Origin: Oscillospiraceae bacterium
GTDB taxonomy: Bacteria > Bacillota > Clostridia > Oscillospirales > Acutalibacteraceae
DNA length: 42,022 nt
Assembly (NCBI GenBank): GCA_910574995.1
Contig: CAJTCS010000015.1
Span: forward strand, 1-42,022
Reading direction: 5' to 3'
Shown here: positions 1,231-35,481 of the stretch, piece by piece
Layout: the number at the start of each line of letters is the position of its first letter
Position numbering within the stretch: position 1 is the stretch's first letter
Program-made: the position numbers and the translations under genes
Notes under the pieces: generated by a model
Seen by the model: the letters and a program-made list of their open reading frames with translations, nothing else
Told to the model about the DNA's origin: nothing
The model's database searches: none

Positions 1231-2295
1231 ATGCATATCACAGGAAACGCAAGGTATTTAAACTGTATAGAAAAGCTATACAGTTGCTTTCCATATTGGG
1301 AGGGGTTGGAGGGGAAACGGATTTTTCTTTCTGGTGCTTCCGGCATGATTAGCAGCTTTCTAGTGGATGCCATTATGCTGCGGAACCGGGGGCTGCCCCT
1401 TGAAAAGCGCACACTTATCCTGGGTTTTGTGCGTAATTTAGAGAAAGCAAAGGCACGGTTTACACCTTGGCTGGGGGAAAGGGAACTTATCCTCACCCAG
1501 CATGACATCTGTAACGTACTGCCACCGCTGGCAGAGGTGGACTATTGGATACACGCAGCCAGCACCACCCATCCGATGGCTTATTCCTTGGAACCTGTAA
1601 ACACTATTTTTTCCAACGTGCTGGGTACAAAGAATATTTTAGATAAAACTGCAGAATCTCGTGGGCGTTTTCTGCTGCTTTCCAGTGTGGAGGTTTATGG
1701 AGAAAACCGTGATGGCACCGAATTTTTTGCTGAAAAGGATTGCGGATATATCGACTGCAACACCCTGCGGGCCGGGTACCCAGAGGCGAAGCGGGTCAGC
1801 GAGGCCATGTGCCAGGCATATAGTGCGCAATTTGGCGTGGATTCGGTTATCCTTCGCCTGCCCCGCTGTTATGGTCCCACTATGCAGATGACAGACTCCA
1901 AAGCTGTAGCACAGTTTATCAAGAAGGCTGTGGCGGGCGAAGATATTGTGCTGAAAAGTGAAGGGAACCAGTTCTATTCTTATGCGCATGTAGCAGACGC
2001 GGTATGCGGTTTGCTATGGGTTCTGCTGGCAGGAAAATCCGGGGAAGCGTACAACTTGGCAGATGAAACGTCAGATATTGCTTTAAAGGAATTGGCGAAA
2101 CTTGCAGCGGATTGTGTGGGGAAAAATGTTGTTTTTGACTTGCCAGATGAGGCGGAAAAGCGCGGGTTCTCTAAAGTGCAAAAAGCGGTATTGGACGGGG
2201 GGAAGCTGAAAAACCTGGGGTGGCGGCCCGCCTGTTCCATACAGGACGGGATACCGAAAACCATTAAAATTTTGCGGGAATGTGCTTATGAATGA
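1231..2295 (+). CDS. NAD-dependent epimerase/dehydratase (extended SDR)
   Basis: The 354 aa product has the Rossmann motif GASGMI near residues 35-40, an SSVEVYGE segment supplying the catalytic Ser, and GYPEAKR giving the Tyr-x3-Lys pair. Length and motifs fit extended SDRs such as UDP-glucuronate decarboxylase or UDP-/CDP-sugar epimerases. GGAGAG stands just before the ATG. It follows the cytidylyltransferase by 9 bp and overlaps the aminotransferase downstream, so it belongs to the same operon. It may act on a CDP-linked or other nucleotide sugar; the substrate is unresolved. Confidence 0.85.
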   Translation: MHITGNARYLNCIEKLYSCFPYWEGLEGKRIFLSGASGMISSFLVDAIMLRNRGLPLEKRTLILGFVRNLEKAKARFTPWLGERELILTQHDICNVLPPLAEVDYWIHAASTTHPMAYSLEPVNTIFSNVLGTKNILDKTAESRGRFLLLSSVEVYGENRDGTEFFAEKDCGYIDCNTLRAGYPEAKRVSEAMCQAYSAQFGVDSVILRLPRCYGPTMQMTDSKAVAQFIKKAVAGEDIVLKSEGNQFYSYAHVADAVCGLLWVLLAGKSGEAYNLADETSDIALKELAKLAADCVGKNVVFDLPDEAEKRGFSKVQKAVLDGGKLKNLGWRPACSIQDGIPKTIKILRECAYE

Positions 2296-3394
2296 GATTA
2301 ACGTAGCCCGCTCCTCCATGCCATCTTTCGAGGAATATTGCGGGGAAATCCAGGAATTGTGGGACAGCCGGTGGCTGACCAACATGGGGATAAAGCATGA
2401 AGAACTGCGTATAAAATTGCAGGGGTATCTGGACGCGAAACACCTGCATTTACTTACAAATGGCCATATGGCCATAGAGCTTTCCCTGCAGGCCCTGGGC
2501 CTTTCTGGAGAAGTTATCACCACGCCTTTCACCTTTGCCTCCACCACCCAGGCTATTGTTAGGAACGGCTTAACGCCTGTGTTTTGCGACATTGACCCGG
2601 TAACATTCTGCATGGATCCGGAGAAAATAGAGCCGCTTATCACAGAGAAAACCAGCGCCATTTTACCCGTCCACGTGTATGGGAATGTGTGCGATGTGGA
2701 AGCCATTGAAAGGATAGCAAATAAATATAATCTTGCAGTAATATACGACACGGCCCACGCCTTTGGGGTGAAATATGAAGGTAAAGGAATCGCAAATTTT
2801 GGGGACGCGAGCTGCTTCAGCTTCCACGCCACCAAGGTTTTTCATACTGTTGAGGGCGGCTGCGCCTGTTTCCGAAGCGAGGGGGTTGGGAAGCGGCTTG
2901 CGAGGCTTAAAAACTTTGGCCTATCAGGGCAGGAGGATGTTAGCGAGATTGGCACAAACGCCAAGCTAGACGAGTTCCGGGCAGCCATGGGGTTGTGTAA
3001 CCTGCGGCGAGTGGATGGGGAAATCATGAAACGCGGGAGGGCTGTAGAGCGGTATCGAGAACGGTTGGGAGGCGTTCCAGGCTTGCAGATAAATCCTGTG
3101 CAGAAAAATGTGCAGCAGAATTTTGCCTACTTCCCGGTCGTTTTCCATGAGAAAGCCTTTGGCGCGGACAGGAATGCTGTACTGCATAAACTTGCGGAAA
3201 ACGGCGTATATGCCCGTAAGTATTTCTACCCGCTGACAAGCGAGTTTGCCTGTTATGGCGGAAAATTTGAGCCAGAGGAAACACCTGTTGCAAAGGAAAT
3301 CAGCCAGAGGGTTTTAACGCTTCCGCTGTATGCGGAGCTGGATTTAGAGGCCGTTGACCGCATTTGCAATATCATTTTAAGCTATAAAAAGTGA
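2288..3394 (+). CDS. DegT/DnrJ/EryC1/StrS PLP-dependent sugar aminotransferase
   Basis: The 368 aa product has the fold-type I DegT layout: YDTAHAFGVK, then SFHATKVFHTVEGG, in which the Lys is the Schiff-base residue. I chose ATG at 2288 over the in-frame GTG at 2282. It overlaps the epimerase by 8 bp. RmlA and RmlB follow immediately and RmlC/RmlD are absent, so the likely substrate is dTDP-4-keto-6-deoxyglucose or its 3-keto isomer, giving a dTDP-amino-dideoxyhexose as with VioA, FdtB or QdtB. The family is certain; the regiochemistry is inferred. Confidence 0.88.
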   Translation: MNEINVARSSMPSFEEYCGEIQELWDSRWLTNMGIKHEELRIKLQGYLDAKHLHLLTNGHMAIELSLQALGLSGEVITTPFTFASTTQAIVRNGLTPVFCDIDPVTFCMDPEKIEPLITEKTSAILPVHVYGNVCDVEAIERIANKYNLAVIYDTAHAFGVKYEGKGIANFGDASCFSFHATKVFHTVEGGCACFRSEGVGKRLARLKNFGLSGQEDVSEIGTNAKLDEFRAAMGLCNLRRVDGEIMKRGRAVERYRERLGGVPGLQINPVQKNVQQNFAYFPVVFHEKAFGADRNAVLHKLAENGVYARKYFYPLTSEFACYGGKFEPEETPVAKEISQRVLTLPLYAELDLEAVDRICNIILSYKK

Positions 3395-3404
3395 GGTGGA
3401 AACC

Positions 3405-4289
3405 ATGAAAGGGATCATCCTTGCCGGAGGCTCGGGCACACGGCTGTACCCGCTGACTAAAATTATATCCAAACAGCTTTTGCCCGTGTATGACAAGCCT
3501 ATGATTTTCTATCCCCTGTCCACCTTGATGCTGGCGGGTATCCGGGACGTCTTGTTGATTTCCACGCCCCAGGATCTTCCCAAATTCCAAGAATTGCTGG
3601 GGGACGGCGGGCAGTTTGGTATCCGCTTAAGCTATGTGGAACAGCCAAAGCCAGAGGGGATTGCCCAAGCTTTTCTCATCGGCGAAGCGTTTTTAGACGG
3701 CGAACCTTGCGCCATGGTTTTGGGGGATAACATCTTTTACGGCGGGTGGTTTGGACAGAATCTGCAGGAAGCGGTGAAGAATGCGCATGCAGGCTTTGCC
3801 ACCATTTTTGGATACTATGTCCGGGACCCCCAGCGGTTTGGGATTGTGGAACTTGACTCTCGCCACAATGTGGTTTCTGTGGAGGAAAAGCCGGAAAAAC
3901 CCAAGTCCAATTACTGCATAACGGGGTTATATTTTTATAGCGCAGGAGTTTCAGAACTGGCAAAAAAGCTGGCCCCGTCAGCCCGGGGAGAGCTGGAAAT
4001 TACGGACTTAAACCGGCTGTATTTGCAGGAAAATAGGCTGAAGGCCCAGGTGCTGGGAAGGGGGTTTGCCTGGATGGATACAGGCACAGTGGACAGTTTG
4101 ATGGAAGCGGCCACCTTTGTAGAGACAGTGCAGAACCGCCAGGGGGTGGTGATTTCCGCACCAGAGGAAATTGCCTATTACGTTGGATGGATAGACCGGG
4201 CAAAGCTGTTGGAAAATGCCAAATTATACGGAAAGTCATCTTACGGAGAGCATTTGCGGCTGGTGGCGGAGGATAGGTTTTTGCGGTGA
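3405..4289 (+). CDS. rmlA: Glucose-1-phosphate thymidylyltransferase RmlA
   Basis: The 294 aa protein opens MKGIILAGGSGTRLYPLT and continues with SKQLLPVYDKPMI, the classic RmlA nucleotide-binding region; VLGDNIFYG and WMDTGT are further family motifs. It makes dTDP-glucose from dTTP and glucose-1-phosphate. GAGGTGG ten bases upstream supports the ATG at 3405; an in-frame GTG at 3396 lies inside that ribosome binding site and is rejected. It sits directly between the aminotransferase and RmlB. Length matches the family. Confidence 0.96.
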   Translation: MKGIILAGGSGTRLYPLTKIISKQLLPVYDKPMIFYPLSTLMLAGIRDVLLISTPQDLPKFQELLGDGGQFGIRLSYVEQPKPEGIAQAFLIGEAFLDGEPCAMVLGDNIFYGGWFGQNLQEAVKNAHAGFATIFGYYVRDPQRFGIVELDSRHNVVSVEEKPEKPKSNYCITGLYFYSAGVSELAKKLAPSARGELEITDLNRLYLQENRLKAQVLGRGFAWMDTGTVDSLMEAATFVETVQNRQGVVISAPEEIAYYVGWIDRAKLLENAKLYGKSSYGEHLRLVAEDRFLR

Positions 4290-4314
4290 TTTTAAGAGGA
4301 AAGAGGCGGCGGGC

Positions 4315-5334
4315 ATGACAGTTTTGGTGACAGGAGGGGCTGGGTTTATCGGCTCCAATTTTATATTCTACTGGATGGAAAACCACCCTGAGGACAAAGT
4401 TGTTTGCCTGGATAAATTGACTTATGCGGGGAATTTGTCCACTTTGAAAGCAGTGATGGATAAGCCTAATTTCCAATTTGCAAAGGGTGATATCTGCGAC
4501 AAAGAGCGAGTGTTTGATTTGTTCCGGGCGGAGCATCCGGAGGTTGTGGTGAACTTCGCGGCGGAGACCCACGTAGACCGCTCCATTGACGGGCCCAGCG
4601 TGTTTTTGCAGACGAATCTTTTTGGCACTGCCACGCTTTTGGAGGCTTGCCGGGAGTTTGGGGTGGGGCGTTACCACCAGGTTTCCACCGATGAAGTTTA
4701 CGGGGACCTGCCTTTAGAGAGGCCTGATTTGTTCTTCACGGAAGAGACCCCGCTGTACACCAGCTCGCCTTACAGCGCCAGCAAGGCTGGGGCGGACTTG
4801 ATGGTGCAGGCGTACCACAAAACCTTTGGGGTACAGGCCACCATTTCCCGTTGCTCCAACAATTATGGCCCGTATCAGTTCCCAGAGAAATTGATCCCGC
4901 TGATGGTTCTGAACGCCTTGCAGGATAAGCCCCTGCCTGTGTATGGGGAAGGTATAAACATACGGGATTGGCTGTATGTAAAAGACCATTGCCGGGCCAT
5001 TGAACTGATCTTACAAAAAGGAAAGCCGGGGGAAATCTACAACGTGGGAGGGCACAACGAGCGGCGGAACATCGATGTGGTGCGGCTGGTTTGCACGGAA
5101 CTGAGGAAGCCGGAAAGCCTGATAACTTATGTAGCCGACCGCAAGGGCCACGACAGGCGGTATGCCATCGACCCGGAGAAGATCCATAAGGAACTGGGCT
5201 GGCTGCCGGAGACAAACTTTGAGGACGGCATGAAGCGGACAATCCGGTGGTATGCAGAGAACCGGGAGTGGTGGGAAGGCATCGTTTCCGGTGAGTATCA
5301 GGAGTATTACAAAAAGATGTACGGAAGCAGGTGA
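4315..5334 (+). CDS. rmlB: dTDP-glucose 4,6-dehydratase RmlB
   Basis: The 339 aa product starts MTVLVTGGAGFIGSNF (NAD-binding Rossmann) and carries VSTDEVYG (catalytic Thr-Asp-Glu) and YSASKAGAD (Tyr-x3-Lys), plus the SRCSNNYGPYQFPEKLIP segment that is diagnostic of RmlB. It converts dTDP-glucose to dTDP-4-keto-6-deoxyglucose. The ATG at 4315 has the purine-rich AAGAGGAAAGAGG upstream; an earlier in-frame ATG would overlap rmlA by 74 bp and is rejected. With no RmlC/D nearby, its product probably feeds the aminotransferase at 2288-3394. Confidence 0.97.
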   Translation: MTVLVTGGAGFIGSNFIFYWMENHPEDKVVCLDKLTYAGNLSTLKAVMDKPNFQFAKGDICDKERVFDLFRAEHPEVVVNFAAETHVDRSIDGPSVFLQTNLFGTATLLEACREFGVGRYHQVSTDEVYGDLPLERPDLFFTEETPLYTSSPYSASKAGADLMVQAYHKTFGVQATISRCSNNYGPYQFPEKLIPLMVLNALQDKPLPVYGEGINIRDWLYVKDHCRAIELILQKGKPGEIYNVGGHNERRNIDVVRLVCTELRKPESLITYVADRKGHDRRYAIDPEKIHKELGWLPETNFEDGMKRTIRWYAENREWWEGIVSGEYQEYYKKMYGSR

Positions 5335-5339
5335 ACTGC

Positions 5340-6749
5340 ATGTGGGATTTTGGCAAATTTTCAAATCGTCTCGCTTCCATAGACGAGACTGGGACAAAGG
5401 TAAGTTATGGGCAATTAGATGAAGAAAACAAACGGTTTGAACAGGCTCTGGGAGGCAGGGGCCTGGTGTTTATCCTGTGCTCCAATACGATAGGCAGCCT
5501 TATTGGATACACAGGTTGCTTGAATGGGGGTTCTGTACCCCTATTATTGGCGCAAAACCTGGATAAGGATTTGCTGGCAAGCCTCATAAATCTTTACCTG
5601 CCTGATTACCTGTGGGTACCCGAAGATATGCGGATCGCATATCCGGCATTGCCCGTCAAATACGAAGCGTTTGGGTATCTCTTGCTTGAAACAGGCCATA
5701 GAAAAGCCTACCCGATGCACAAAGAGCTGTGCTTGCTGCTTACGACTTCCGGTTCAACAGGCAGCCCAAAATTTGTACGGCAAAGCTATGAAAACGTCTT
5801 GTCTAACGCCGTTTCAATCGTAGAATACCTGCAGCTGGACGAAACAGAACGCCCGATTTCCACCCTGCCCATGCATTACACATACGGGCTTTCTATTATA
5901 AACAGCCATTTGCTTGTAGGTGCCACCCTGCTTTTTACGAATAAAGGCATTATGCAAAAGGAGTTTTGGGAGTTTTTTAAACAACAGGGGGCAACTTCTT
6001 TTGGCGGCGTTCCCTATACATATGAAATGCTGAACCGGCTGCGCTTTTTTCAGATGGATTTGCCGTCGCTTCGATATTCCACGCAGGCCGGGGGAAAGCT
6101 GACGCCAGAGCTGCATAAAAAGTTTGCAGAAAACGCCCAGGAGAAAGGGACGAAGTTTATTGTTATGTATGGGCAGTGCGAGGCCACAGCGCGCATGGGT
6201 TATCTTCCCGCAGAAAAAGCCCTTGAGAAGTATGGCTCCATGGGCATAGCGATTCCCGGCGGCAAATTTCATTTGATCGATGCAGAGGGGGAAACCATAT
6301 CCGAACCTTATGTGACAGGCGAGTTGGTCTATGATGGACCTAACGTTACCATGGGGTATGCGGAGTGCGGGGCAGACCTGATAAAAGGCGATGAACGAGG
6401 GAAAACTCTGCAAACTGGAGATATGGCACAGTTTGATGAGGACGGCTATTACTATATTGTCGGCCGAAAAAAACGGTTCTTAAAATTATACGGGAACCGG
6501 GTAAACCTGGATGAGATCGATCGTTTGATAAAAGCCGAATTTCACAATATAGACTGTGCCAGCGCCGGGGTGGACGATCATATGTATGTATTTGTCACAG
6601 ACCAAGAGGTCGCGGGGAAGGTAAAGCCTTTCCTGGCTGCCAAAACCGGGATAAATGCCGCAGCGTTCAAAACAATCGTTATTGATGAAATCCCTAAGAA
6701 CGACGCGGGGAAAACTTTATATAAAGAGCTTACAAAATATTACCTTTGA
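5340..6749 (+). CDS. AMP-forming acyl/aminoacyl-adenylating ligase (ANL superfamily)
   Basis: The 469 aa protein shows the ordered ANL core motifs: LLLTTSGSTGSPK (A3, phosphate loop), MYGQCEATARMGYLP (A5), LQTGDMAQFDEDGYYYIVGR (A7/A8 hinge) and NDAGKTLYKEL with the C-terminal catalytic Lys (A10). Such enzymes activate a carboxylate as acyl-AMP and pass it to CoA or a carrier protein. ATG 5340 has AGGTGA seven bases upstream; GTG 5331 is the alternative. It leads the acyl-handling block that holds two LuxE/LuxC sets and an ACP, so it may load that ACP. The substrate acid is unknown. Confidence 0.86.
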   Translation: MWDFGKFSNRLASIDETGTKVSYGQLDEENKRFEQALGGRGLVFILCSNTIGSLIGYTGCLNGGSVPLLLAQNLDKDLLASLINLYLPDYLWVPEDMRIAYPALPVKYEAFGYLLLETGHRKAYPMHKELCLLLTTSGSTGSPKFVRQSYENVLSNAVSIVEYLQLDETERPISTLPMHYTYGLSIINSHLLVGATLLFTNKGIMQKEFWEFFKQQGATSFGGVPYTYEMLNRLRFFQMDLPSLRYSTQAGGKLTPELHKKFAENAQEKGTKFIVMYGQCEATARMGYLPAEKALEKYGSMGIAIPGGKFHLIDAEGETISEPYVTGELVYDGPNVTMGYAECGADLIKGDERGKTLQTGDMAQFDEDGYYYIVGRKKRFLKLYGNRVNLDEIDRLIKAEFHNIDCASAGVDDHMYVFVTDQEVAGKVKPFLAAKTGINAAAFKTIVIDEIPKNDAGKTLYKELTKYYL

Positions 6750-6798
6750 TTTTTTCTGTAAGCCAGGAAGCTAAATTTGGATGTAGGAGATGGATTCC

Positions 6799-9120
6799 AT
6801 GGGCTTTCAGAATTTTTTACAAATCTCGCCCTATTCGTTGGATAAGGCGGAAAAAGGGAAGATGCTTACTGAAAGGTTGATAGAGCTTACGGAGCTTCAT
6901 CGGCAAACCTGCCCGGCATATAGAGAAATGCTGGACCTACTATCTTATGAGAGGGGGAAGGTCCATTGCTATCAGGAGCTTCCCTTCCTTCCCGTGCGGC
7001 TGTTCAAGGAATTATCTCTAAAAAGCGTGGCGCAGGATGAGGTCGTGAAAACGATGACATCCTCTGGGACGTCCGGGCAAAAGGTTTCGCAGATTTTCCT
7101 GGACCGCACGACTGCTTCCAACCAGCAGAGGGCCATGGTTAAGATCGTAAATGATTTTACCGGTGCCGCGCGGATGCCAATGGTCATCATAGACTGCCCC
7201 TCAGTAGTAAAAGACAGGAAAATGTTTTCAGCGAGGGGCGCGGGGATTCTGGGGTTTTCCATTTTCGGGTCGAAGAAAATATATGCCCTGAACGATGACA
7301 TGCAGCTTGACATAGCGGGTTTGGAAGCCTTTTTAAACCAATATAAGGAGCAAAAAATCCTTCTTTTCGGGTTCACCTTCATGGTGTGGCAGTACTTTTA
7401 TAAAGAGCTTGCGCGCCTGAAAAGAGAGGGAAAAACCTTCGACTTATCAAAAGCTGTCCTGATACATGGGGGCGGTTGGAAAAAGCTGCTCGGTGAAGCC
7501 GTTAGCCCGGAGGAGTTCCGTAAAGCGTTGAAAGATGTGTGTGGGATCAGCCGGGTATACGATTATTATGGTATGGTAGAACAGACTGGCTGCATTTACA
7601 TGGAATGCGAATATGGGCATTTGCATGCCAGCGTTTTTTCGGATATCGTTGCCAGGAGGCCAGAGGACTTTTCTGTGTGTGAGGTTGGGGAAGGGGGGAT
7701 TTTGCAGGTTGTATCGACTCTTCCGGAATCCTATCCTGGGCACAGCCTGCTTACAGAGGACGTTGGGGTAATTCTTGGGGAAGATGACTGTCCGTGCGGG
7801 AGGAAGGGTAAGTATTTTAAAGTTTACGGCCGCCTGAAGAATGCCGAACTCCGTGGCTGCAGCGATACCTTTGTGGCAGGCTGGGGAGAAATGGGAACCC
7901 ACAGGGAGGATAAAGAGGTTTTCAACCGGATATCGTTCCTGGTTGGTGGCAATGGCGCTTTGCTTGCTCTTCCCGGTGTTGTGCCATTGCTTCCCTTTTC
8001 GGAAAATGTATTGGACTTCCTGCAAGACCTCTCCAGGAGATTGTTGCAGGACCATGAAGCTAAAGCCTACTCCGATATTATGGCGCTAGCTTTTTGGATT
8101 CGAAAGTCTTCCACCCTATCCTTACAAGAGCGTTTTACAGTACAAGGGCGAAAACAGGTTGGGCGTGGCGTGGCTTTCCATATCGCGCCATCCAACGTCC
8201 CGGTCAATTACGCCTATTCCCTTTTTACAGGGCTGCTTTGCGGCAACGCGAATGTTGTGCGGGTGCCCTCCAAGGATTTCCCACAAATACAAATCATTAA
8301 CCGGGCAATCTGTGCGGTGCTGGAAAAGCACCCAGAGTTGAAACCCTATATACTGCTGCTGCGGTATGAACGCAGCAGGGAAGTAAATGACGCTTTATCC
8401 TCTTTATGCGATGTGCGCATCGTCTGGGGCGGGGATTCTACCATCGCGGAGCTGAGGAAATCTCCATTGCCTCCACGTGCCGCAGAGGTCACCTTTGCAG
8501 ACAGGTATTCCCTGGCAGTGATCGATTCCGACGAGTATATAAGGCGCATAAAATCCGATAACAAAGCGGCCAGCCGCATTGCTTCGGATTTCTACAACGA
8601 TACATATTTGTCCGACCAGAACGCCTGTACCAGCCCGCGGGCGGTGGTCTGGTTAGGGCAAGCCAGAGAAGAAGCCAAAGAGGCTTTTTGGGGGGATTTG
8701 TTTTCTCTTGCGAAACAAAAGTACCCTTTCCAACCTGTACAGGCAGTTGACAAGCTTTCGATGGGGTATCTGGCCTCTGCTGCGGGTTTGGGGAAAATGA
8801 AGCAAATCCCCCAGGGCAATAACCGCCTGATAAGGCTGCAAATTACCGAGATGTCCCCGAAGCTTATGGACTATAGGGGAAACTCTGGCTACTTCTATGA
8901 GTTTGACTGTGATGACATCCTGGCGCTGCAAGATTTCTGTAGTGACACGCGCTGCCAGACGATTGGCCTGTTGGGGGAGAAAAGTTTGGTGGAGCCGTTG
9001 CTTCGGGTAGGAATCCGCGGGGTCGACCGCGTTGTCCCTATAGGGCATACCATGGATTTCGACTTGATATGGGATGGGTATAACCTGGTGGAAAGGCTTA
9101 CCAGGACGATCCAGATGTAA
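6799..9120 (+). CDS. LuxE-LuxC fusion: acyl-protein synthetase plus acyl reductase
   Basis: This 773 aa protein joins two enzymes that are normally separate. Residues 1 to about 355 are LuxE-like (adenylation-type SSGTSGQ near residue 87, YGMVEQTGCIY, SYPGHSLLTED). From about 390 it is LuxC-like (GVAFHIAPSNVPVNY near 455, DFYNDTYLSDQNACTSP with the nucleophilic Cys at about residue 610). LuxE activates an acid and passes it to LuxC, which reduces it to an aldehyde with NAD(P)H. No luciferase genes are present, so bioluminescence is not implied. ATG 6799 sits 8 bases after AGGAGA; ATG 6790 overlaps that site. A split paralogous pair lies at 12164-14417. Confidence 0.88.
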   Translation: MGFQNFLQISPYSLDKAEKGKMLTERLIELTELHRQTCPAYREMLDLLSYERGKVHCYQELPFLPVRLFKELSLKSVAQDEVVKTMTSSGTSGQKVSQIFLDRTTASNQQRAMVKIVNDFTGAARMPMVIIDCPSVVKDRKMFSARGAGILGFSIFGSKKIYALNDDMQLDIAGLEAFLNQYKEQKILLFGFTFMVWQYFYKELARLKREGKTFDLSKAVLIHGGGWKKLLGEAVSPEEFRKALKDVCGISRVYDYYGMVEQTGCIYMECEYGHLHASVFSDIVARRPEDFSVCEVGEGGILQVVSTLPESYPGHSLLTEDVGVILGEDDCPCGRKGKYFKVYGRLKNAELRGCSDTFVAGWGEMGTHREDKEVFNRISFLVGGNGALLALPGVVPLLPFSENVLDFLQDLSRRLLQDHEAKAYSDIMALAFWIRKSSTLSLQERFTVQGRKQVGRGVAFHIAPSNVPVNYAYSLFTGLLCGNANVVRVPSKDFPQIQIINRAICAVLEKHPELKPYILLLRYERSREVNDALSSLCDVRIVWGGDSTIAELRKSPLPPRAAEVTFADRYSLAVIDSDEYIRRIKSDNKAASRIASDFYNDTYLSDQNACTSPRAVVWLGQAREEAKEAFWGDLFSLAKQKYPFQPVQAVDKLSMGYLASAAGLGKMKQIPQGNNRLIRLQITEMSPKLMDYRGNSGYFYEFDCDDILALQDFCSDTRCQTIGLLGEKSLVEPLLRVGIRGVDRVVPIGHTMDFDLIWDGYNLVERLTRTIQM

Positions 9121-9135
9121 GAGAGGTTGTTGTCG

Positions 9136-9795
9136 GTGAAATTGTTTATTTACGGCGCGGGCGGCGCAGGGCTTGAAACCTACGACCTTGTGAGCAGAAA
9201 CAGAAAGATAAAAACCCGCTATACAGGCGTTTATTTCGTTGACGATTTTGCGCCGGAAGGAGAATATTACGGCACCAGAAGACTCCATTTCACTTCATGC
9301 AAGGAGTATATGGGGGAGGATGGCGCTGCGTTCATCATTGCGGCAGGTGAGCCTGCGGTGCGCAGGCTGCTGTATGAAAAAGTCAAGTCTGCGGGCTATC
9401 CCTTGGCAACGCTGATTGACGAGACTGCGATCATTTCAGATACGGCGGCGATAGGAAAAGGGTGTATCATCCAGGCATATGCCGTTGTTTCTTCGGAAGC
9501 AACCATAAACGAAAATTGCTTTTTAATGCTGCAAACTATTATTGGCCATCATGCGGTTATGGAAAGCCATTGTGTAGTTTCGCCAAAGGCAACGGTTGGC
9601 GGGCACAGCCGGGTTGGGACAGAGGCTTTTTTAGGTCTGGGTTCCTCCATGATGCAAGGGGTCAATATTGGCAGCAAGGCCATAGTAGGATTAGGTTCCA
9701 TGGTGTTCAAAAATGTGGAGGACGGCGCTACTGTAATCGGGAACCCCGCCAGGGTGACAAAGGGAAATAGTGAGCATAAAGTTTTTGGTAGATAA
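9136..9795 (+). CDS. PglD/NeuD-like sugar O-/N-acyltransferase (left-handed beta-helix)
   Basis: About 219 aa. The N-terminal part has a PglD_N-like nucleotide fold (KLFIYGAGGAGLETYDLV), followed by hexapeptide repeats (DTAAIGKGCIIQAYAVV onward) of the left-handed beta-helix acyltransferases. GTG 9136, nine bases after GAGAGG, is the preferred start; TTG 9127 is the alternative. PglD and NeuD acetylate amino-sugars or sialic acid with acetyl-CoA. Placed between the LuxEC fusion and a FabZ-like gene, it may use an ACP- or CoA-bound acyl group. The donor and acceptor are inferred only. Confidence 0.82.
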   Translation: MKLFIYGAGGAGLETYDLVSRNRKIKTRYTGVYFVDDFAPEGEYYGTRRLHFTSCKEYMGEDGAAFIIAAGEPAVRRLLYEKVKSAGYPLATLIDETAIISDTAAIGKGCIIQAYAVVSSEATINENCFLMLQTIIGHHAVMESHCVVSPKATVGGHSRVGTEAFLGLGSSMMQGVNIGSKAIVGLGSMVFKNVEDGATVIGNPARVTKGNSEHKVFGR

Positions 9796-9807
9796 TGGGG
9801 AGGAAAT

Positions 9808-10299
9808 ATGGAAAATAACGGAAAAAAAGTGCTATCATTTGACGCTTATGAACTGCAAAAGTATGAACCGAACCGGTATCCCTTTTTGTTCATCGACAGG
9901 GTGACGGAATGTGTGCCGGGCGAGTATGCCAAAGGGTATAAGAACCTGACAAACAACGAATGGTTTTTCCCCCATCATTACGAGGGGCATCCCTTTATGC
10001 CGGCGGCTATACAGACCGAGGCCTTGAGCCAGATGATAACAGTTGCGTTCACAACATTGCCAGAAGTGGAACAGGTGGACGTAGTCGGCTCCCGGTGGAG
10101 CGCGAAATTCCACAGGGAAATCCGCCCAGGGGACAGGCTGGATATCGAAGCCTTTGTAAAATCCTACTCTAGAGGCGTGGGAAAAGGGTATGCCAAGAGC
10201 TATGTGGACGGGGAGTTGGCCTGCGAAGTGGAAGTGACTATGGTCATACCCTGCGTGTTCAACAAGTATAAGCCCCAAACAAAGGCCGAGGGAAAGTAA
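9808..10299 (+). CDS. FabZ/FabA-like hot-dog dehydratase
   Basis: The 163 aa product has NRYPFLFIDRV followed by FFPHHYEGHPFMPAAIQTEA. This matches the FabZ pattern in which the His of the GHFP-like segment and a Glu about 14 residues later are catalytic. FabZ dehydrates 3-hydroxyacyl-ACP to enoyl-ACP. A good GGGGAGGAAAT precedes the ATG and the SDR begins 1 bp after it. A housekeeping fab operon would be expected to hold accA-D, fabD and fabF, none of which is here, so this is probably a dedicated copy for the acyl branch of the glycan locus. Confidence 0.8.
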   Translation: MENNGKKVLSFDAYELQKYEPNRYPFLFIDRVTECVPGEYAKGYKNLTNNEWFFPHHYEGHPFMPAAIQTEALSQMITVAFTTLPEVEQVDVVGSRWSAKFHREIRPGDRLDIEAFVKSYSRGVGKGYAKSYVDGELACEVEVTMVIPCVFNKYKPQTKAEGK

Positions 10300-10300
10300 T

Positions 10301-11170
10301 ATGCTGACAGGGAAAAACGCTATCATAACAGGTTCAAACAGAGGCATAGGCCTGGCTGCTGTGGAAGTTTTTGCAGAGCAGGGCGCCGTCGTTTGGGCGT
10401 GCGCGCGTACGCGGTCTGAAGAATTTGAAAGCCGATTGAAGGAAATAGCAGACAAAAACGCTGTTGCCATCACTCCGGTTTACTTTGACGTTTCCGATAA
10501 AGCCGCGGCCAAAGAGGCCGTCCAAAAAATTGGCAGGGCTGCGGGGACGATTGACGTCCTGGTCAACAATGCTGGGATTTCTGTTGAGAAGCTTTTCAGT
10601 ATGACCTCGATAGAAACTATACAGAAAACCATAGAGGTCAACTTCTTATCCCAGGTGTACTTGGCACAGCTCGTATCCCGCTATATGATGAAGGCTAAGG
10701 CCGGCAGCATTGTAAATGTCGCGTCCGTTGCGGGGATAGAAAGCGAGGAGGGGGGCGTCGCCTATGGAAGCAGCAAGGCGGCCGTCATCTTTGCCACAAA
10801 GACCATGGCCCTGGAGCTGGGGCCTTATGGGATAAGGGTAAATTCGGTCTCGCCCGGCTTTATTGATACGGACATGTGGGCAGGGCGCAAGGATGAAATA
10901 CGAGAAAAAATTTTGAGCGAAACCCCGCTTCGCAGGCAAGGGGCGCCCCGGGAAGCAGCCAATGCCATATTGTTCCTGGCCTCAGAACTTTCATCCTATA
11001 TTACACGGCAAAACATTGTGGTAGACGGCGGCAGGCGGGGGGGGGGGGAGACATACAGTGCCATATGTCTAAACCGATTTCCGGCTATTATGATACTTTG
11101 GGATGCTTTGAAACAGAAGGATTACGATGATGATATTAAAGAATGGAAGAAAAATTATAAACGGATGTGA
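10301..11170 (+). CDS. FabG-like short-chain dehydrogenase with a 12-G tract near its 3' end
   Basis: Classical SDR: TGSNRGIG cofactor motif, NNAG, Ser then VAYGSSKAA (Tyr155, Lys159), and PGFIDTDM. FabG proteins usually stop shortly after VDGG. Here VDGG is followed by a run of 12 Gs (11037-11048) and then 43 residues with no resemblance to SDRs, running 44 bp into neuB. One G fewer would stop the frame at 11070-11072. One G more would stop it at 11128-11130, overlapping the neuB ATG by ATGA. The listed end is therefore for the sequenced G12 state and may be one phase of a switch or a homopolymer error. It presumably reduces a 3-ketoacyl- or sugar-linked carbonyl. Confidence 0.85.
   Translation: MLTGKNAIITGSNRGIGLAAVEVFAEQGAVVWACARTRSEEFESRLKEIADKNAVAITPVYFDVSDKAAAKEAVQKIGRAAGTIDVLVNNAGISVEKLFSMTSIETIQKTIEVNFLSQVYLAQLVSRYMMKAKAGSIVNVASVAGIESEEGGVAYGSSKAAVIFATKTMALELGPYGIRVNSVSPGFIDTDMWAGRKDEIREKILSETPLRRQGAPREAANAILFLASELSSYITRQNIVVDGGRRGGGETYSAICLNRFPAIMILWDALKQKDYDDDIKEWKKNYKRM
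11037..11048 (+). repeat. Homopolymeric G12 tract, possible phase-variable slippage site
   Basis: Twelve consecutive G residues lie inside the SDR coding sequence right after the conserved VDGG. Each of the three possible tract lengths modulo 3 gives a different C-terminus (stops at 11072, 11130 and 11170), and they differ in how they overlap neuB. Poly-G tracts drive phase variation in Campylobacter glycan loci. Whether it happens here, or whether the length is a sequencing artefact, cannot be told from one sequence. Confidence 0.7.
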
Positions 11171-12167
11171 GCCGTACATAGTTGCGGAATTGAATTCTAG
11201 CCACAATGGCAAAATCGCTATCGCAAAAGAAATGATCGATGCGGCGAAAGCCTGTGGGTGTGACGCGGTGAAATTCCAGTCTTGGTCGGCGGAATCCCTG
11301 TATTGCCGGGATTATTATGACCAGAACCCCATTTCCAAAAGGATGGTCAGCCGGTTTTCGCTAAAGCCAGAGGAATTGTTAGAATTGGCCCAATACAGCA
11401 AGAGTATTGGCATTGATTTTTCCTCTACCCCTTACTCCAATCCAGAAGTGGACTTCCTGGTAGACCAGTGCCAGGCGCCTTTTATCAAGGTGGCTTCCAT
11501 GGATATCAATAACCTGCCTTATTTACGGTACATTGCGAAAAAGGGGGTGCCTATCCTTTTGTCGACCGGCATGGCGGATATAGAGGAAATCAAAGAGGCT
11601 GTCCAAGAAATTGAAAATGCAGGCAATCGGAACGTCTGTATACTGCATTGCGTGTCCTTATACCCGGTAGAGCCACAGGACGTGAACCTGCGCAATATGG
11701 CCATGCTGAAAGAAACATTCCCTGATTATGCGGTAGGGTATTCGGACCATACTGTGGGGAGCCAAACGGCATGTGCCGCTGTTGCCCTTGGCGCGGCGGT
11801 AATAGAAAAACACTTTACCCTTGACAATAAAAAAATCGGCTGGGATAACCAGATGGCTACAGAGCCTGCCGATATGGAAGAGCTGGTAACGGGTTGCCAC
11901 ATGGTGCATAGTGCGTTAGGGCATTATGAAAGGGTCCTTTCCCCCGGCGAACTAGGGCAGCGCATAAAAATGCGTAGAAGCCTTGTGGCTGCTGTGGATA
12001 TGGAAAAGGGCCATGTGATAACTGAAAAAGAGCTTACCGCAAAGCGTCCAGGAGATGGGATTCCAGTAGGCCAATATAAACGCATAGCTGGACGGGTACT
12101 TATAAAGGACTTGCAGAAGGATCAGAAAATTCTAGAGGAATACTTGCAAGAAAGAGGATCTGAATGA
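11127..12167 (+). CDS. NeuB/SpsE-family PEP-dependent nonulosonate synthase
   Basis: About 346 aa with an N-terminal TIM barrel (VAELNSSHNG, DAVKFQ, STGMADIEE, YSDHT, EKHFT) and a C-terminal antifreeze/SAF domain (residues about 290-346, RPGDGIP). The His residues in SDHT and KHFT match the metal ligands of NeuB. The family condenses PEP with an open-chain aldose aldehyde. The usual GPDH-type segment after KHFT reads IGWDNQMATEP here, a divergent version. No NeuA, NeuC or Pse/Leg gene is visible. AGAAGGA serves ATG 11127 or 11130. ATGA overlap joins it to the following luxE-like gene. The true co-substrate is unknown. Confidence 0.88.
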   Translation: MMILKNGRKIINGCEPYIVAELNSSHNGKIAIAKEMIDAAKACGCDAVKFQSWSAESLYCRDYYDQNPISKRMVSRFSLKPEELLELAQYSKSIGIDFSSTPYSNPEVDFLVDQCQAPFIKVASMDINNLPYLRYIAKKGVPILLSTGMADIEEIKEAVQEIENAGNRNVCILHCVSLYPVEPQDVNLRNMAMLKETFPDYAVGYSDHTVGSQTACAAVALGAAVIEKHFTLDNKKIGWDNQMATEPADMEELVTGCHMVHSALGHYERVLSPGELGQRIKMRRSLVAAVDMEKGHVITEKELTAKRPGDGIPVGQYKRIAGRVLIKDLQKDQKILEEYLQERGSE

Positions 12168-13240
12168 TAGAAGATTTTCATAAGCTGCCGCCTTATTCTT
12201 TGGCTAAGCCTGAAAAAAGGCAACTTTTGCTAAAAGAACTGAACGAGTTGACGGAGATGCACCGGGAAAGGTGCGCTGGGTATGCGCGATTTCTGGACGC
12301 AATCGGTTATAGCCAGGGGCAGGCGCAAAAACTGGAAGATGTACCGTTTGTACCTATACGGATTTTCAAAGAACTGGACTTGAAAAGCATCCCGGATGAG
12401 CAGGTGTTCAAGACCATGATGTCATCGGGGACAAGTGGCCAGGCACAGTCGAAAATATATCTTGATAAGAGGACGGCCATCTTGCAGCAGAAGGTTTTAC
12501 TCCGGCTTTTAGGGGATTATGTGGGGCCAAAGCGGTTGCCTATGCTGGTGGTGGATTGCCCTGCAACCATACGGGACAGGCGGTTGTTTACGACCCGAGG
12601 CGCCACCATTATGGGCCTGGATTTTATGGCAAAAAAGATGGTGTTTGTGCTGAACGACGACATGTCTTTGAACTTGGAAGCACTGATGGGATTTTTGGAA
12701 ACCTACGGGAAGGACAATTTCCTGATTTTCGGATTCACCTTTATGATATGGCAGCACCTTTTTGATGTAATTGAGAAAAAGAACTTGCAGGTTGATCTAT
12801 CTAATGGTTATTTATTAACAGCCGGAGGATGGAAGAAGCTGACAAACGCGGCTGTATCCAATTTGGATTTCAAGAAAAGAGGGGAGAATGTCTGCGGCAT
12901 CAGGCATTATGTAGACCATTACGGCATGGCAGAGCAGACCGGATGCATCTATGCGGAATGTGCATACGGCCATCTCCATGCCAGCATCTATTCCGATGTT
13001 ATCGTAAGGAGATACCAAGATTTTTCACCCTGTGGGTTTGGCGAGCCTGGCTTTATCCAGGTTTTGTCCAGCCTGCCCCATTCCTATCCCGGGCACTCCA
13101 TATTGACAGAGGATAAGGGCATTATCCTTGGTGAGGATGACTGCCCCTGTGCGAGGAAAGGAAAATATATACAAGTGCTGGGAAGGATGGAAAATGCTGA
13201 GATAAGGGGGTGCAGCGACACCTATGCAGCCAGCTTTTGA
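12164..13240 (+). CDS. LuxE-like acyl-protein synthetase (stand-alone copy)
   Basis: This 358 aa protein matches the N-terminal half of the 6799-9120 fusion along its whole length. It has MSSGTSGQ near residue 87, YGMAEQTGCIYAE, SYPGHSILTED and GEDDCPCARKGKY, and ends shortly after RGCSDTY where the fusion continues. LuxE forms an acyl-AMP and transfers the acyl group to a Cys before handing it to LuxC. It starts by ATGA overlap with neuB and overlaps the luxC gene by 17 bp, so translation is coupled. The substrate is unknown. Confidence 0.87.
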   Translation: MIEDFHKLPPYSLAKPEKRQLLLKELNELTEMHRERCAGYARFLDAIGYSQGQAQKLEDVPFVPIRIFKELDLKSIPDEQVFKTMMSSGTSGQAQSKIYLDKRTAILQQKVLLRLLGDYVGPKRLPMLVVDCPATIRDRRLFTTRGATIMGLDFMAKKMVFVLNDDMSLNLEALMGFLETYGKDNFLIFGFTFMIWQHLFDVIEKKNLQVDLSNGYLLTAGGWKKLTNAAVSNLDFKKRGENVCGIRHYVDHYGMAEQTGCIYAECAYGHLHASIYSDVIVRRYQDFSPCGFGEPGFIQVLSSLPHSYPGHSILTEDKGIILGEDDCPCARKGKYIQVLGRMENAEIRGCSDTYAASF

Positions 13241-14417
13241 CAGGATAAAATACCTTGTGGGTAGTCGGAAGATACTCGAGCAGATGGAAACTGTGCCAGC
13301 CCTTCCTTTGTTTTCAGATAAAGTGTTGGGCTTCCTCGATTGTTTTTCCAAAAAGCTGATGGAAAACCGCGAGGCACGGCAATATCCGGATGTGATTGCC
13401 TACGCCTTCTGGATAAGGAAAGCGCATATGGAGCAGGCCAGGATGGCCTATCAGGCAGGGACGCAACGGGTTGGAAGAGGGGTTGCGTTTCAAATAGCCC
13501 CGTCAAACATCCCGGTCCAATTTGCGGTTTCCATGACCTATGCCCTTATAGCGGGCAATGCGTCGATTGTAAGGATATCTGATAAGGAATTTGAACAGGT
13601 AGATATCATTTGCCAAACCTTGCAGGCGGTCATGCTGGATGCATACCCTTGTCTGGCCCCTTATATTTGTATCATCCGGTATGCGCACGATGACACCATA
13701 ACCCAATTGCTTTCAGATATGTGCGGGGTGCGGATGATATGGGGCGGCAACCGCACCATTTCGGCTATACGCAAGACACAAGTAAGGCCGCGGTGTTTGG
13801 ATTTAGGGTTTGCAGACCGGTACTCCATCGCTGTAGTTGACTCAGATGATTATCTAAAACAAGACAGAGATGCGATTGCCCGTGACTTTTACAATGACAC
13901 GTACTTTTCGGACCAGAACGCGTGCAGTTCCCCAAGGCTGATTGTCTGGACAGGGCATGGCATACCGAAGGCAAAAGAAGTGTTTTGGGGCGCGTTGGCA
14001 GACGTGGTGTCTGAGAAGTATAAGATGGATCCTATATGCGCATCTGAAAAGCTACTGAAAGTTGCAGTATGCGCCTCTAGATATCCGGGCGTGAAAGCCA
14101 TAAAAAAGGACAACCTGCTCGTAAGGATAGAGCTGCCTGCCTTGTATGAGGATATCATGGGCTTCAGAGGGAACTGCGGTTTCTTTTTTGAGTACAGCGC
14201 GGACAAGCTGCAAGAAATTGTCCCCATACTGACGGAAGATTGCCAGACTATCGCGTATATAGGCGGGATAGAAGAGGAGCTTCGAAAGGTCATTGCAGAC
14301 AACGGTGTAAAAGGCGTTGACAGGATCGTGCGGGTAGGGCACGCCGCTGACATTTCCTTTGTGTGGGATGGGCTGGACTTGCCCAACGTCTTATCCCGGC
14401 AAATAGGCAATTCATAA
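13224..14417 (+). CDS. LuxC-like acyl reductase (stand-alone copy)
   Basis: The 397 aa product matches the C-terminal half of the fusion. It carries GVAFQIAPSNIPVQF, IWGGNRTI and DFYNDTYFSDQNACSSP, the last containing the predicted catalytic Cys (about residue 234). LuxC belongs to the aldehyde-dehydrogenase superfamily and reduces an acyl-enzyme to a free aldehyde with NADPH. Translation starts within the 3' end of luxE. An acyl carrier protein gene follows by 31 bp, suggesting ACP-bound substrates. Confidence 0.88.
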   Translation: MQPAFDRIKYLVGSRKILEQMETVPALPLFSDKVLGFLDCFSKKLMENREARQYPDVIAYAFWIRKAHMEQARMAYQAGTQRVGRGVAFQIAPSNIPVQFAVSMTYALIAGNASIVRISDKEFEQVDIICQTLQAVMLDAYPCLAPYICIIRYAHDDTITQLLSDMCGVRMIWGGNRTISAIRKTQVRPRCLDLGFADRYSIAVVDSDDYLKQDRDAIARDFYNDTYFSDQNACSSPRLIVWTGHGIPKAKEVFWGALADVVSEKYKMDPICASEKLLKVAVCASRYPGVKAIKKDNLLVRIELPALYEDIMGFRGNCGFFFEYSADKLQEIVPILTEDCQTIAYIGGIEEELRKVIADNGVKGVDRIVRVGHAADISFVWDGLDLPNVLSRQIGNS

Positions 14418-14448
14418 AAACATATTTCAAATATAGGAGGCTATTAAA

Positions 14449-14688
14449 ATGACAAACCAGGAAAAATATACAAACGCGTTCGTAGAGGCTTTGGAAATAA
14501 GCGGTAACCAGGTGGAAGGGCTGGAATACCAGGCAATCCCCGAATGGGATTCTGTAGGGCATATGTCCCTTATCGCAGCAATTGAAGAAGCTTTTGATAT
14601 TATGATGGACACAGACGATATTATTGATTTTAGTTCTTATAAGAAAGGGCAGGAAATTTTGAAAAAGAATTATGGTGTCGAGCTGTAA
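14449..14688 (+). CDS. Acyl carrier protein
   Basis: This small acidic protein of 79 aa has the 4'-phosphopantetheine attachment motif WDSVGHMS (Ser at about residue 35), followed by the acidic helix AAIEEAFDI typical of ACPs. It has a near-perfect AGGAGG ribosome binding site. It closes the lux/fab-like block, so it is the probable carrier on which the activated acid is reduced, dehydrated or transferred. It is separate from housekeeping fatty acid genes, none of which is seen here. Confidence 0.9.
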   Translation: MTNQEKYTNAFVEALEISGNQVEGLEYQAIPEWDSVGHMSLIAAIEEAFDIMMDTDDIIDFSSYKKGQEILKKNYGVEL

Positions 14689-14774: not shown

Positions 14775-14830
14775 GAATTTAATACATATGAGATTAGGCA
14801 ATAATTAAGAAAGCGGAGGCGGTTTTGAGA

Positions 14831-15991
14831 ATGGAGAGAAACGTAATATTCGGGTTGGGAATGGTGGGAAAGCAGGCGCTTAGAGAACTCGGTAAAGAAA
14901 ATGTTGCATATTTTATCAGTAACTCCTCTGATAAATGGGGAAAGATGTTTGCTGATATTCCAGTAATATCACTGGAAATTTATATAAGCTTGAATCAAAC
15001 GTATCATGTGGTGATTGCGAGCAATTACGTAGACAGTATGATTTTGCAGCTAAAAGAACTTGGTATTACAAACTATTCTATTTTTAAAGACCCATCTACC
15101 CGCCGTGTATATGAAACAGACGAATTAATTTTTAATCAATATGAGACGAAACCGGAAGCCAGTTCAGAATTAGAGTGGAATAGTTCTAGAACATTGCAAT
15201 ACAGAATAGAAAATGTCCGTGCTGCGGTAAAACTGATACAAGCGGAAGATCTGCCATTATTTACATCTGTTGAAGTAGAAACTATTAATCGCTGCAATGG
15301 TATTTGTTCTTTTTGCCCTATTAATTCAAAAGTTGATCCGAGAGAAAAGAAAATTATGTCAAAAGAGATGTTTAAATCTATAGTGGATCAACTAGCTGCT
15401 TTACATTATAGTGGAAGGTTTTCGGCATTTTCCAATAATGAGCCATTATTGGACGATAGGATTGTAGAGTTTCACCAATACGCCAGAAAGCAACTTCCAC
15501 AAGCAAAATTCCATTTATACACAAATGGAACACTTTTGACTTTGGATAAATTCAGAGCCTTAGTTGAGGTATTGGATGAGTTGATTATTGACAACTATCA
15601 GCAAGACCTTAAATTGATTGATCCGTGTAAAGAAATTGAAAAATATTGTGAGATCCATAAAGATCTGAAAAAGAAAGTTACAATATTACTTAGAAAACCA
15701 CATGAGATCTTGACTTCCAGAGGTGGAAATGCTCCCAATAGGACACAGATTAAAGATTATTCTGAAGAACCATGTGTGTTACCTTTCCGACAACTTGTTA
15801 TCCGCCCAGACGGGAAAATATCGCTTTGTTGTAATGATGCGCTGGGAGAGCATACGTTAGGCGACTTGACGAAAGAGTCTATTTGTGATGTCTGGTTTGG
15901 TGAGACATATAAAAAAGTGCGGGAAAGCCTTAGGCAAGGTAGAAAGTATTTTGGAAAATGCAAATACTGTGACACCTTCAACGTGTACTAA
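14831..15991 (+). CDS. Radical SAM/SPASM protein with N-terminal Rossmann-like module
   Basis: The 386 aa protein begins with a nucleotide-fold-like module (NVIFGLGMVGKQALREL, residues 4-20, to about 100). The radical SAM core has NRCNGICSFCPI (Cx3Cx2C binding the 4Fe-4S cluster and SAM). A C-terminal SPASM-like region follows: PCVLPFRQLVIRPDGKISLC, then CxxC-type pairs ending CKYCDTF. The ATG at 14831 lies after GCGGAGGCGG; TTG 14825 is an alternative. The gene is more AT-rich than the lux/acp block. Related proteins modify sugars or peptides; the substrate is not recognised. Confidence 0.82.
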   Translation: MERNVIFGLGMVGKQALRELGKENVAYFISNSSDKWGKMFADIPVISLEIYISLNQTYHVVIASNYVDSMILQLKELGITNYSIFKDPSTRRVYETDELIFNQYETKPEASSELEWNSSRTLQYRIENVRAAVKLIQAEDLPLFTSVEVETINRCNGICSFCPINSKVDPREKKIMSKEMFKSIVDQLAALHYSGRFSAFSNNEPLLDDRIVEFHQYARKQLPQAKFHLYTNGTLLTLDKFRALVEVLDELIIDNYQQDLKLIDPCKEIEKYCEIHKDLKKKVTILLRKPHEILTSRGGNAPNRTQIKDYSEEPCVLPFRQLVIRPDGKISLCCNDALGEHTLGDLTKESICDVWFGETYKKVRESLRQGRKYFGKCKYCDTFNVY

Positions 15992-17560: not shown

Positions 17561-17585
17561 GTAGAATTAGATGGAGGACAACGAG

Positions 17586-35469: not shown

Positions 35470-35481
35470 GAGGATTTGGGG

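Follow-up and report, generated by a model that had tools for sequence, protein, structure and literature searches.

A NeuB-family enzyme accompanied by LuxE and LuxC in a putative acyl-sugar operon of an Oscillospiraceae bacterium

In this study we analysed a complete contig (C15, 42,022 bases; hereafter the window) of the 3.45-Mb, 54-contig genome (99.98% complete) of an Oscillospiraceae bacterium. Nine genes of the window, all on one strand and running from an AMP-forming acyl ligase (LIG) to an acyl carrier protein (ACP; 5331-14688), encode among others a NeuB-family enzyme, LuxE and LuxC. It is well established that LuxE and LuxC together turn acids into aldehydes. Judging from gene content and conserved residues, we consider it probable, on balance, that the block uses LuxE and LuxC to make a short aldehyde, which NeuB would extend with phosphoenolpyruvate (PEP), and that a dTDP-4-amino sugar would finally carry the product as its acyl group, i.e. 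that the block is an extension of a tetronate-type pathway. The original prediction for this DNA had listed a ligase, a LuxE-LuxC fusion, a PglD-like acyltransferase, FabZ, FabG, NeuB, a second LuxE and LuxC, and an ACP; all of these were found, on one strand and with agreeing coordinates. Its reading, in which an aldehyde made by LuxE and LuxC is condensed with PEP by NeuB or decorates a sugar, stands in part: it left out the tetronate precedent of Vibrio cholerae O1, the upstream dTDP-amino-sugar genes and the interchange of NeuB with transketolase.

The Lux-linked NeuB clade

A tree was computed from 59 NeuB sequences. The window protein and 16 more sequences made up one side of a branch with support 100/99 (the long-branched 1xuu row, the sequence of locus L168 and the second copy of a G395 gene, at L170, were left out, and NeuB frames of at most 250 amino acids, including fragments at L016 and L076, were used in no tree). 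The clade spans at least three phyla; its members of named origin are from Bacillota, Spirochaetota and Pseudomonadota. LuxC is present at the locus of all 17 members, including both of the two found by a NeuB-first search. The lux genes thus accompany this type of neuB, contrary to the outcome that the original prediction had named as refuting it (lux genes not conserved with neuB), yet the locus itself is patchy.

Since most loci had been fetched by means of LuxC, a reverse search with a NeuB profile was made. At E 1e-90 the profile matched two of 398 genomes of the same family (the window's own and G036) and none of the five other listed genomes of the same genus. It also matched 12 of 391 genomes of the class; two of these reached the level of the clade (own genome, 602 bits; G1041, 559 bits), G1088 followed with 394 bits, and the others scored 305-320. 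The NeuB genes of G036 and G1041 each lie inside a Lux module with transketolase, which in G1041 also contains an acetolactate synthase (ALS)-like enzyme. No Lux gene was found at E 1e-5 in the fetched stretches (6-20 kb) of the other 10 class-level NeuB loci. A phylum-wide search with the single window sequence (398 genomes, 103 matching) gave, besides the window's own gene, identities of 44% or less, and plasmid records searched with it at E 1e-60 gave no match. Apart from the one strong match, the window's genome contains a weaker NeuB match on contig C14 (36.2 bits, over the Pfam cut-off).

Residues of 15 clade members were compared with those of 34 other NeuB genes, using the numbering of Neisseria meningitidis SiaC. 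E25, K53, Q55, T110, K129, S132, Y186, S213, H215, E234, H236, D247 and R314 are kept in all 15, and S154 in 14; among these are the positions taken as catalytic, PEP or metal sites. Specific to the clade are N27 for G, S29 for N, S56 for T, Y112 for F, M133 for G, N248 for H and M250 for A (15 of 15), W57 for F, A251 for S and K288 (14 of 15), and a shorter loop after position 57. The clade-specific positions probably line the acceptor side. The residues at 134 and 184 are not distinctive for the clade. Position 246, beside the acceptor Asp, is W at all six complete loci with two Lux pairs, and M or L at all ten with one (L005, a 3-kb contig with NeuB and LuxC and no LuxE in view, was not counted). 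The predicted structure of the window protein folds as NeuB/SAF (predicted local distance difference test, pLDDT, 91.4), with TM scores of 0.82-0.87 to 1xuu and 8h2c, 1xuu being the nearest (0.87). Given the conserved PEP, metal and catalytic sites and the changed acceptor positions, NeuB of this clade probably keeps the PEP chemistry and has a changed acceptor.

Ordinary NeuB products need CMP activation. The original prediction had named a NeuA or NeuC companion as the finding that would speak against it. No match to PF02348 (NeuA) was found in the window's genome and no NeuC/LegG-type 2-epimerase in the locus; the sole Epimerase_2 match lies on another contig, C5. By comparison, a PF02348 match occurs within about 3.5 kb of NeuB in nine of nine control genomes, the controls being ordinary or sister NeuB genes. 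A NeuA-like profile, built from those nine genes and five from Lux loci, detected a gene in all 10 control stretches versus one of the 17 clade loci (Fisher p 1.3e-6, with kinship not corrected and some clade contigs short). In that one exception, L048, the NeuA-like gene is 11 kb off and closer to the second, ordinary NeuB of the locus. The sister of the clade, the NeuB of G1088, adjoins NeuA; the change of clade is thus accompanied by the loss of NeuA and the gain of Lux as partner.

These results bear on the possibility of a conventional nonulosonic acid pathway (of legionaminic or pseudaminic type), in which the Lux and ACP genes would only build an unusual N-acyl group. Such a pathway would account for the NeuB fold and catalytic residues, for the NeuD-family acyltransferase encoded upstream in the operon and for the NeuA-adjoining sister gene, and parts of a study of Aeromonas group II islands place lux genes among pseudaminic acid genes (PMC7874193). 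We nevertheless regard it as improbable, because PF02348 has no match in a nearly complete genome, the single Epimerase_2 gene lies elsewhere, the acceptor pocket is changed, NeuA-like genes are almost confined to the controls, and the window NeuB scores below both NCBIfam cut-offs (318 versus 399.65 bits for NeuB; 258.4 versus 340.25 for PseI). Sialic, pseudaminic and legionaminic acid synthases (NeuB, PseI and LegI) share with the window protein the fold and the PEP, metal and catalytic residues; the latter differs in its separate clade, its altered acceptor pocket and a Lux partner in place of NeuA. Homology-based annotation is likely to label this subfamily as sialic acid synthase, although there is probably no sialic acid product, which matters for the prediction of sialylation in bacteria.

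One operon position for several carbon-carbon enzymes

To place the window among related loci, genome contigs were scanned with both window LuxC sequences; of the 133 relatives obtained the best 80 were kept, giving 78 loci; with the window and four further stretches, 83 Lux loci were compared. The own-genome loci L001, L002, L081, L082, L112 and L148, and L149-L159 (short versions of stretches taken whole), were left out of the counts, and the sample is biased to close relatives of the window LuxC. LIG is present at 75 of the 83 loci, with ACP as the upstream neighbour in 45 cases; ACP occurs at 65 and FabG or FabZ at 59. In the 78 scanned loci the LuxE motif RGC[ST] was found in 88 of 90 frames, the LuxC motif C[ST]SP in 80 of 91 (CTAP in 8 more), and the ACP motif DSVGH in 54 of 60. 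The Cys of both Lux motifs is presumably the acylated one.

From every main group of unlabelled neighbours a single protein was searched against Pfam. The groups include (i) split transketolase (PF00456; PF02779/PF02780), (ii) an ALS-like thiamine diphosphate enzyme, and (iii) type II thioesterase, lactate/malate dehydrogenase-like, FabH-like, metallo-beta-lactamase-fold and FkbM proteins; the representative of one further group (working label GNATu2) had no Pfam match. Lactate/malate dehydrogenase-like genes occur at 9 of the 83 loci and type II thioesterase genes at 16 (L021, L050, L048 and L036 are among the loci with one or the other), which may point to alpha-hydroxy acids as substrates and to release in the manner of LuxD.

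Across these loci the place of NeuB is often occupied by the split transketolase. Counting labelled neighbours within 400 bases, FabG precedes the N subunit of transketolase in 25 of 31 cases, and the C subunit is followed by ACP (13), LuxE (7) or LIG (5), i.e. in 25 of 35. NeuB, counted here together with ordinary NeuB genes at Lux loci, is preceded by FabG in 9 and by the ALS-like enzyme in 6 of 20 cases, and of 17 cases is followed in 6 by LuxE, in 5 by ACP, in 3 by LIG and in 1 by LuxC. Transketolase and NeuB both take an aldehyde acceptor, the kind of compound that LuxE with LuxC produces. Where at least 4.4 kb precede the first Lux gene (56 loci), 39 loci have transketolase, the ALS-like enzyme or clade NeuB. 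Clade NeuB occurs together with transketolase at three loci and with the ALS-like enzyme at seven, one locus being in both sets. In G1041 (L164) a single gene run unites all three carbon-carbon enzymes; over about 4.7-15 kb this locus contains ACP, FabG, split transketolase, the ALS-like enzyme, clade NeuB, ligase, type II thioesterase and a LuxE-LuxC fusion.

Of 15 loci with two Lux pairs, 14 have transketolase, the ALS-like enzyme or clade NeuB, and the exception (L004) starts inside its first luxC. When the count is restricted to loci with 2.6 kb or more of upstream sequence (65), a carbon-carbon enzyme was found at 13 of 13 two-pair loci versus 34 of 52 others (Fisher p 0.013, kinship not corrected). 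In a quick tree of 98 LuxC parts, an 18-row clade (SH-like approximate likelihood ratio support 99) holds all seven LuxC sequences placed immediately after NeuB and seven of the nine placed immediately after transketolase, together with three unplaced sequences and one with LIG downstream; it is separate from the LuxC sequences that follow LIG.

This tree helps to weigh a reversed order of reactions, in which the aldehyde joined to PEP by NeuB would be that of an ordinary small sugar or a triose. The carboxyl group of the product would then be reduced by the Lux pairs, to yield either a dialdehyde or a 3-deoxy aldose. The genes of the second Lux pair do stand directly after neuB (overlaps of -4 and -17 bases), and the product of NeuB is an acid that LuxE could activate. 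The products of transketolase, on the other hand, are ketones and not acids, and since the same LuxC subfamily follows this enzyme, supply of an acceptor fits better than use of a product. The reversed order is in our opinion unlikely, and Lux more probably acts upstream of the condensation.

The proposed pathway and related systems

The scheme below leads to a short hydroxylated acyl group on an amino sugar; its reactions on the actual substrates, their sequence, the initial acid and the end product are inferred. The ligase and ACP would activate and carry a small acid. LuxE would adenylate the carboxylic acid, the acyl group would pass from the Cys of LuxE to that of LuxC, and LuxC would reduce it to the aldehyde. 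The NeuB variant would join PEP to this aldehyde instead of N-acetylmannosamine, yielding a 4-hydroxy-2-oxo acid longer by three carbons, an intermediate that FabG and FabZ would reduce and dehydrate. The second LuxE/LuxC pair may supply the aldehyde for NeuB or reduce the carboxyl group for a second round. The NeuD/PglD/VioB-family enzyme would finally move the finished acid from ACP to dTDP-4-amino-4,6-dideoxyhexose, expected to be formed by RmlA, RmlB and the DesI-like DegT protein encoded just upstream. The presence of these three genes and of the acyltransferase makes an N-acylated dTDP-4-amino-4,6-dideoxyhexose the natural end point. The transfer of an aldehyde to NeuB, though predicted from sequence, is well motivated by gene position and residues.

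The closest known system is that of V. cholerae O1, for which Morona et al. (1995) reportedly proposed a putative tetronate pathway; the acyl group is carried on perosamine. NeuB, FabZ and a second Lux pair are not known from this pathway. According to the available portions of two papers, RfbL activates 2,4-dihydroxybutanoate, putatively for CoA or the carrier RfbK, and RfbN has a LuxE domain (PMC12208996, PMC4772473); a third, likewise seen as excerpts, states that deletion of wbeL (RfbL) abolishes the O1 antigen (PMC3441752). As far as these excerpts go, the two systems would share the use of a LuxE-type protein, an AMP ligase and a carrier protein in turning a small acid into a short hydroxy-acyl group for a surface polysaccharide. 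The window contains the corresponding features, i.e. a dedicated ACP, an AMP ligase, LuxE and LuxC with their acyl-Cys motifs, a hexapeptide acyltransferase and amino-sugar nucleotide genes (the DesI-like DegT protein being below its model cut-off). It differs in its acceptor, probably a dTDP-4-amino sugar, and in the added carbon-carbon step. It is this precedent, together with the upstream amino-sugar genes, that leads us to interpret the block as a pathway of the tetronate type to which extension with PEP has been added. An iron alcohol dehydrogenase of the RfbM type is presumably part of such pathways; among the 39 window proteins scanned with Pfam there was no iron alcohol dehydrogenase, no ketosynthase and no luciferase family member. 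FabG may substitute for the first of these.

The original prediction had also mentioned lux homologues in flagellar glycan loci, which is borne out by the accessible text of three papers (PMC7874193, PMC4875605, PMC7575072). The Dickeya zeae flagellar cluster, as partly described, has a transketolase form beside vioA and an acetyltransferase gene (PMC7575072). It resembles the window in LuxE, LuxC, ligase, ACP, FabG, acyltransferase, a VioA-type aminotransferase and a carbon-carbon enzyme (PMC7575072); the split transketolase stands at the place of the window NeuB, and the passages seen suggest a liposugar and propose no aldehyde-extension chemistry (PMC7575072). From similar excerpts, Aeromonas group II and enterobacterial flagellar glycosylation islands unite ACP, FabG, AMP ligase, LuxE and LuxC as the window does. 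The Aeromonas islands differ from it in having PseI as their NeuB-family member, along with PseF, a protein of NeuA type. An island with ACP, FabG, ligase, LuxE and LuxC is reported, in the portion available, for Aeromonas piscicola AH-3, whose glycan has an unexplained 102-Da moiety (PMC7874193). The calculated mass of a dihydroxybutanoyl (tetronyl) group, C4H6O3, is 102.032. The AH-3 moiety might therefore be an acyl group of the tetronate type.

For enterobacterial, Aeromonas and Dickeya islands, the sections consulted propose a liposugar (PMC4875605, PMC7874193, PMC7575072), which for the window would mean that the glycan receives a fatty aldehyde or a fatty acyl chain from LuxE and LuxC and that NeuB is unrelated. 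The best Pfam model of the FabG-like protein, a broad short-chain dehydrogenase/reductase model named enoyl-ACP reductase, would agree with this. We consider it very improbable, in view of the absence of a ketosynthase among the 39 window proteins scanned, the FabH-like genes at just 5 of the 83 Lux loci, a NeuB clade found only with Lux, and the scores of both pairs far under the equivalog cut-offs of the long-chain models (LuxE: fusion 62, second 54.7, versus 550 bits; LuxC: fusion 45.3, second 34.6, versus 750). Bioluminescence was also set aside. The LuxC-LuxE fatty acid reductase complex 7xc6, which we take to be from Photobacterium, shares both families and the catalytic Cys motifs with the window, but the window proteins are remote from it (E 2.3e-5 and 6.1e-12), no luciferase family was found among the window proteins scanned, and the setting is a glycan locus.

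Several observations weigh against the proposed extension of a Lux-derived aldehyde by NeuB. Most clade members have Lux by construction of the sample, only G036 and G1041 being independent, and Lux loci also contain five ordinary NeuB genes that fall outside the clade, so that Lux is linked to this clade in particular rather than to NeuB in general. Taken with the Aeromonas lux genes among pse genes, these ordinary genes mean that co-location alone proves nothing. All 16 other genomes with clade NeuB have PF02348 somewhere, outside the fetched stretches except at L048; a NeuA-type gene is therefore missing from the neighbourhood and not from the cell, the window's own genome excepted (PF02348 presumably also includes KdsB). 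As the sister NeuB stands beside NeuA, a sugar acceptor is likely to be ancestral and could persist, and the kept residues E25, Q55, Y186, D247 and R314 are, we believe, sugar contacts in the N. meningitidis enzyme. The agreement of position 246 with the number of Lux pairs may reflect one event in the tree. The LuxC sequences that follow transketolase in L028 and L047 lie outside the 18-row clade. Finally, clade NeuB, transketolase and the ALS-like enzyme are all missing from the vicinity of Lux at 17 of the 56 well-flanked loci. Lux thus does not supply a carbon-carbon step in every case, and these 17 loci may make simple tetronate-like groups.

More tentatively, we suggest as a possibility, though not the likeliest outcome, a modular aldehyde-based chain assembly for surface glycans: activation by ligase and ACP, reduction by LuxE and LuxC, interchangeable extension by NeuB (three carbons), transketolase (two) or an ALS-type enzyme (two), and FabG and FabZ acting between rounds. 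If true, this would be a third logic next to polyketide-type Claisen extension and ordinary sugar-nucleotide editing. The pathway proposed above would give a concrete role to LuxE, LuxC and ACP genes that flagellar-glycan papers could call only fatty acid genes, and the cell surface should bear acyl groups whose masses are defined and can be searched for. The occurrence of Lux modules in islands for flagellar glycans has been published. A coupling of NeuB to Lux chemistry was not found among the listed matches from open-licence literature, a weak negative given that these matches were partial texts and subscription papers lay outside the search.

Gene content of the window

The operon probably starts earlier than the ligase, at the RmlA, RmlB and DegT genes (1231-5334), as gaps and overlaps range from -44 to +40 bases across 1231-14688 when the rmlB start is taken as 4309, which is probably close to the true start. 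The order PglD-FabZ-FabG-NeuB-LuxE-LuxC-ACP (labelled genes) is repeated in L003, L006 and L007, with one additional unlabelled frame between FabG and NeuB in L003; the arrangement in the window is therefore not due to chance. Both LuxE matches of the whole genome lie in the window. Full-length LuxE is patchy in the family (6 of 150 genomes); the own genome, G036, G011 (one of two) and G051 are represented in the 83 loci, G053 and G112 are not. The genome has five flagellin matches and no match to LpxC, which indicates that the host is probably flagellated and without ordinary lipopolysaccharide.

Table 1. Features of the window and the evidence for their assignment
Feature	Position	Strand	Evidence
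APS-kinase-like gene and IspD/ribitol-5-phosphate-type cytidylyltransferase (contig edge)	62..1221		
DegT-family aminotransferase, nearest DesI	2282..3394	+	TIGR04427 DesI 279.8 bits, below cut-off 650; best PDB match 2po3
RmlA, glucose-1-phosphate thymidylyltransferase	3396..4289	+	TIGR01207 445.7 bits, above cut-off
RmlB, dTDP-glucose 4,6-dehydratase	4216..5334	+	TIGR01181 491.5 bits, above cut-off
AMP-forming acyl ligase (LIG)	5331..6749	+	PF00501 144.3 bits; 4-base overlap with rmlB
LuxE-LuxC fusion, first acid reductase	6790..9120	+	PF04443 180.9 bits, PF05893 98.4 bits; acyl-Cys motifs
NeuD/PglB/VioB-family hexapeptide N-acyltransferase	9127..9795	+	TIGR03570 173.3 bits, cut-off 160.8
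FabZ-like dehydratase	9808..10299	+	PF07977 68 bits; NCBIfam FabZ 103.4, below cut-off 113
FabG-like short-chain reductase	10301..11170	+	PF13561 214.6 bits; C-terminal extension overlaps neuB by 44 bases
NeuB-family PEP:aldehyde condensing enzyme (predicted) with SAF domain	11127..12167	+	PF03102 263.1 bits; Lux-linked clade
Second LuxE	12164..13240	+	PF04443 159.1 bits
Second LuxC, subfamily placed after NeuB or transketolase	13224..14417	+	PF05893 99.2 bits; tree
Acyl carrier protein (ACP)	14449..14688	+	54-row alignment with invariant Ser35; ACP-like model
Two radical SAM/SPASM proteins (within glycan locus)	14825..15991; 17571..18968		
Second DegT	22093..23436		RfbH (best NCBIfam model) 259.3 bits, below cut-off 423
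Defence-like genes	27317..28342; 33187..41550	-; +	
Recombinase fragment with zinc ribbon	29690..30502	-	

The DesI-like DegT protein, whose best PDB match we take to be DesI (dTDP-4-keto-6-deoxyglucose aminotransferase), likely makes the amino-sugar acceptor. PDB relatives of the hexapeptide acyltransferase include VioB and a pilin glycosylation protein, and counterparts of the FabZ-like protein show 89% (L003), 82% (L006) and 68% (L007) identity. The C-terminal tail of FabG (about 40 residues) is absent in L003, L005, L006 and L009, and a shorter one occurs in L007; it possibly arose from a lost stop codon. The ACP matches Pfam PP-binding weakly (16.8 bits, under the 20.8 cut-off), but Ser35 is invariant, within a DSVGHM motif, in the alignment of the window protein with 53 of 60 ACP references. 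An AlphaFold2 model of this ACP (pLDDT 96.7) has a helix that begins at Ser35, and its top Foldseek matches are ACPs, none at E 0.001 or better.

The second DegT protein has a His at the expected position of the pyridoxal phosphate (PLP) Lys, where the first has SFHATKVFHTVEGG. A His in place of the PLP Lys is presumably the ColD/RfbH motif, and the sequence, taken with the neighbouring evidence of Gmd, Fcl-like and GMP/PMI-like genes, points to colitose or another 3-deoxy GDP-sugar. Next to the glycan locus lies the defence-like set, which comprises Shedu SduA, an AAA_13 ATPase, a C5 methylase with an Eco29kI-type nuclease, Vsr, AAA_5 and McrBC; the recombinase fragment is situated between the glycan and defence regions.

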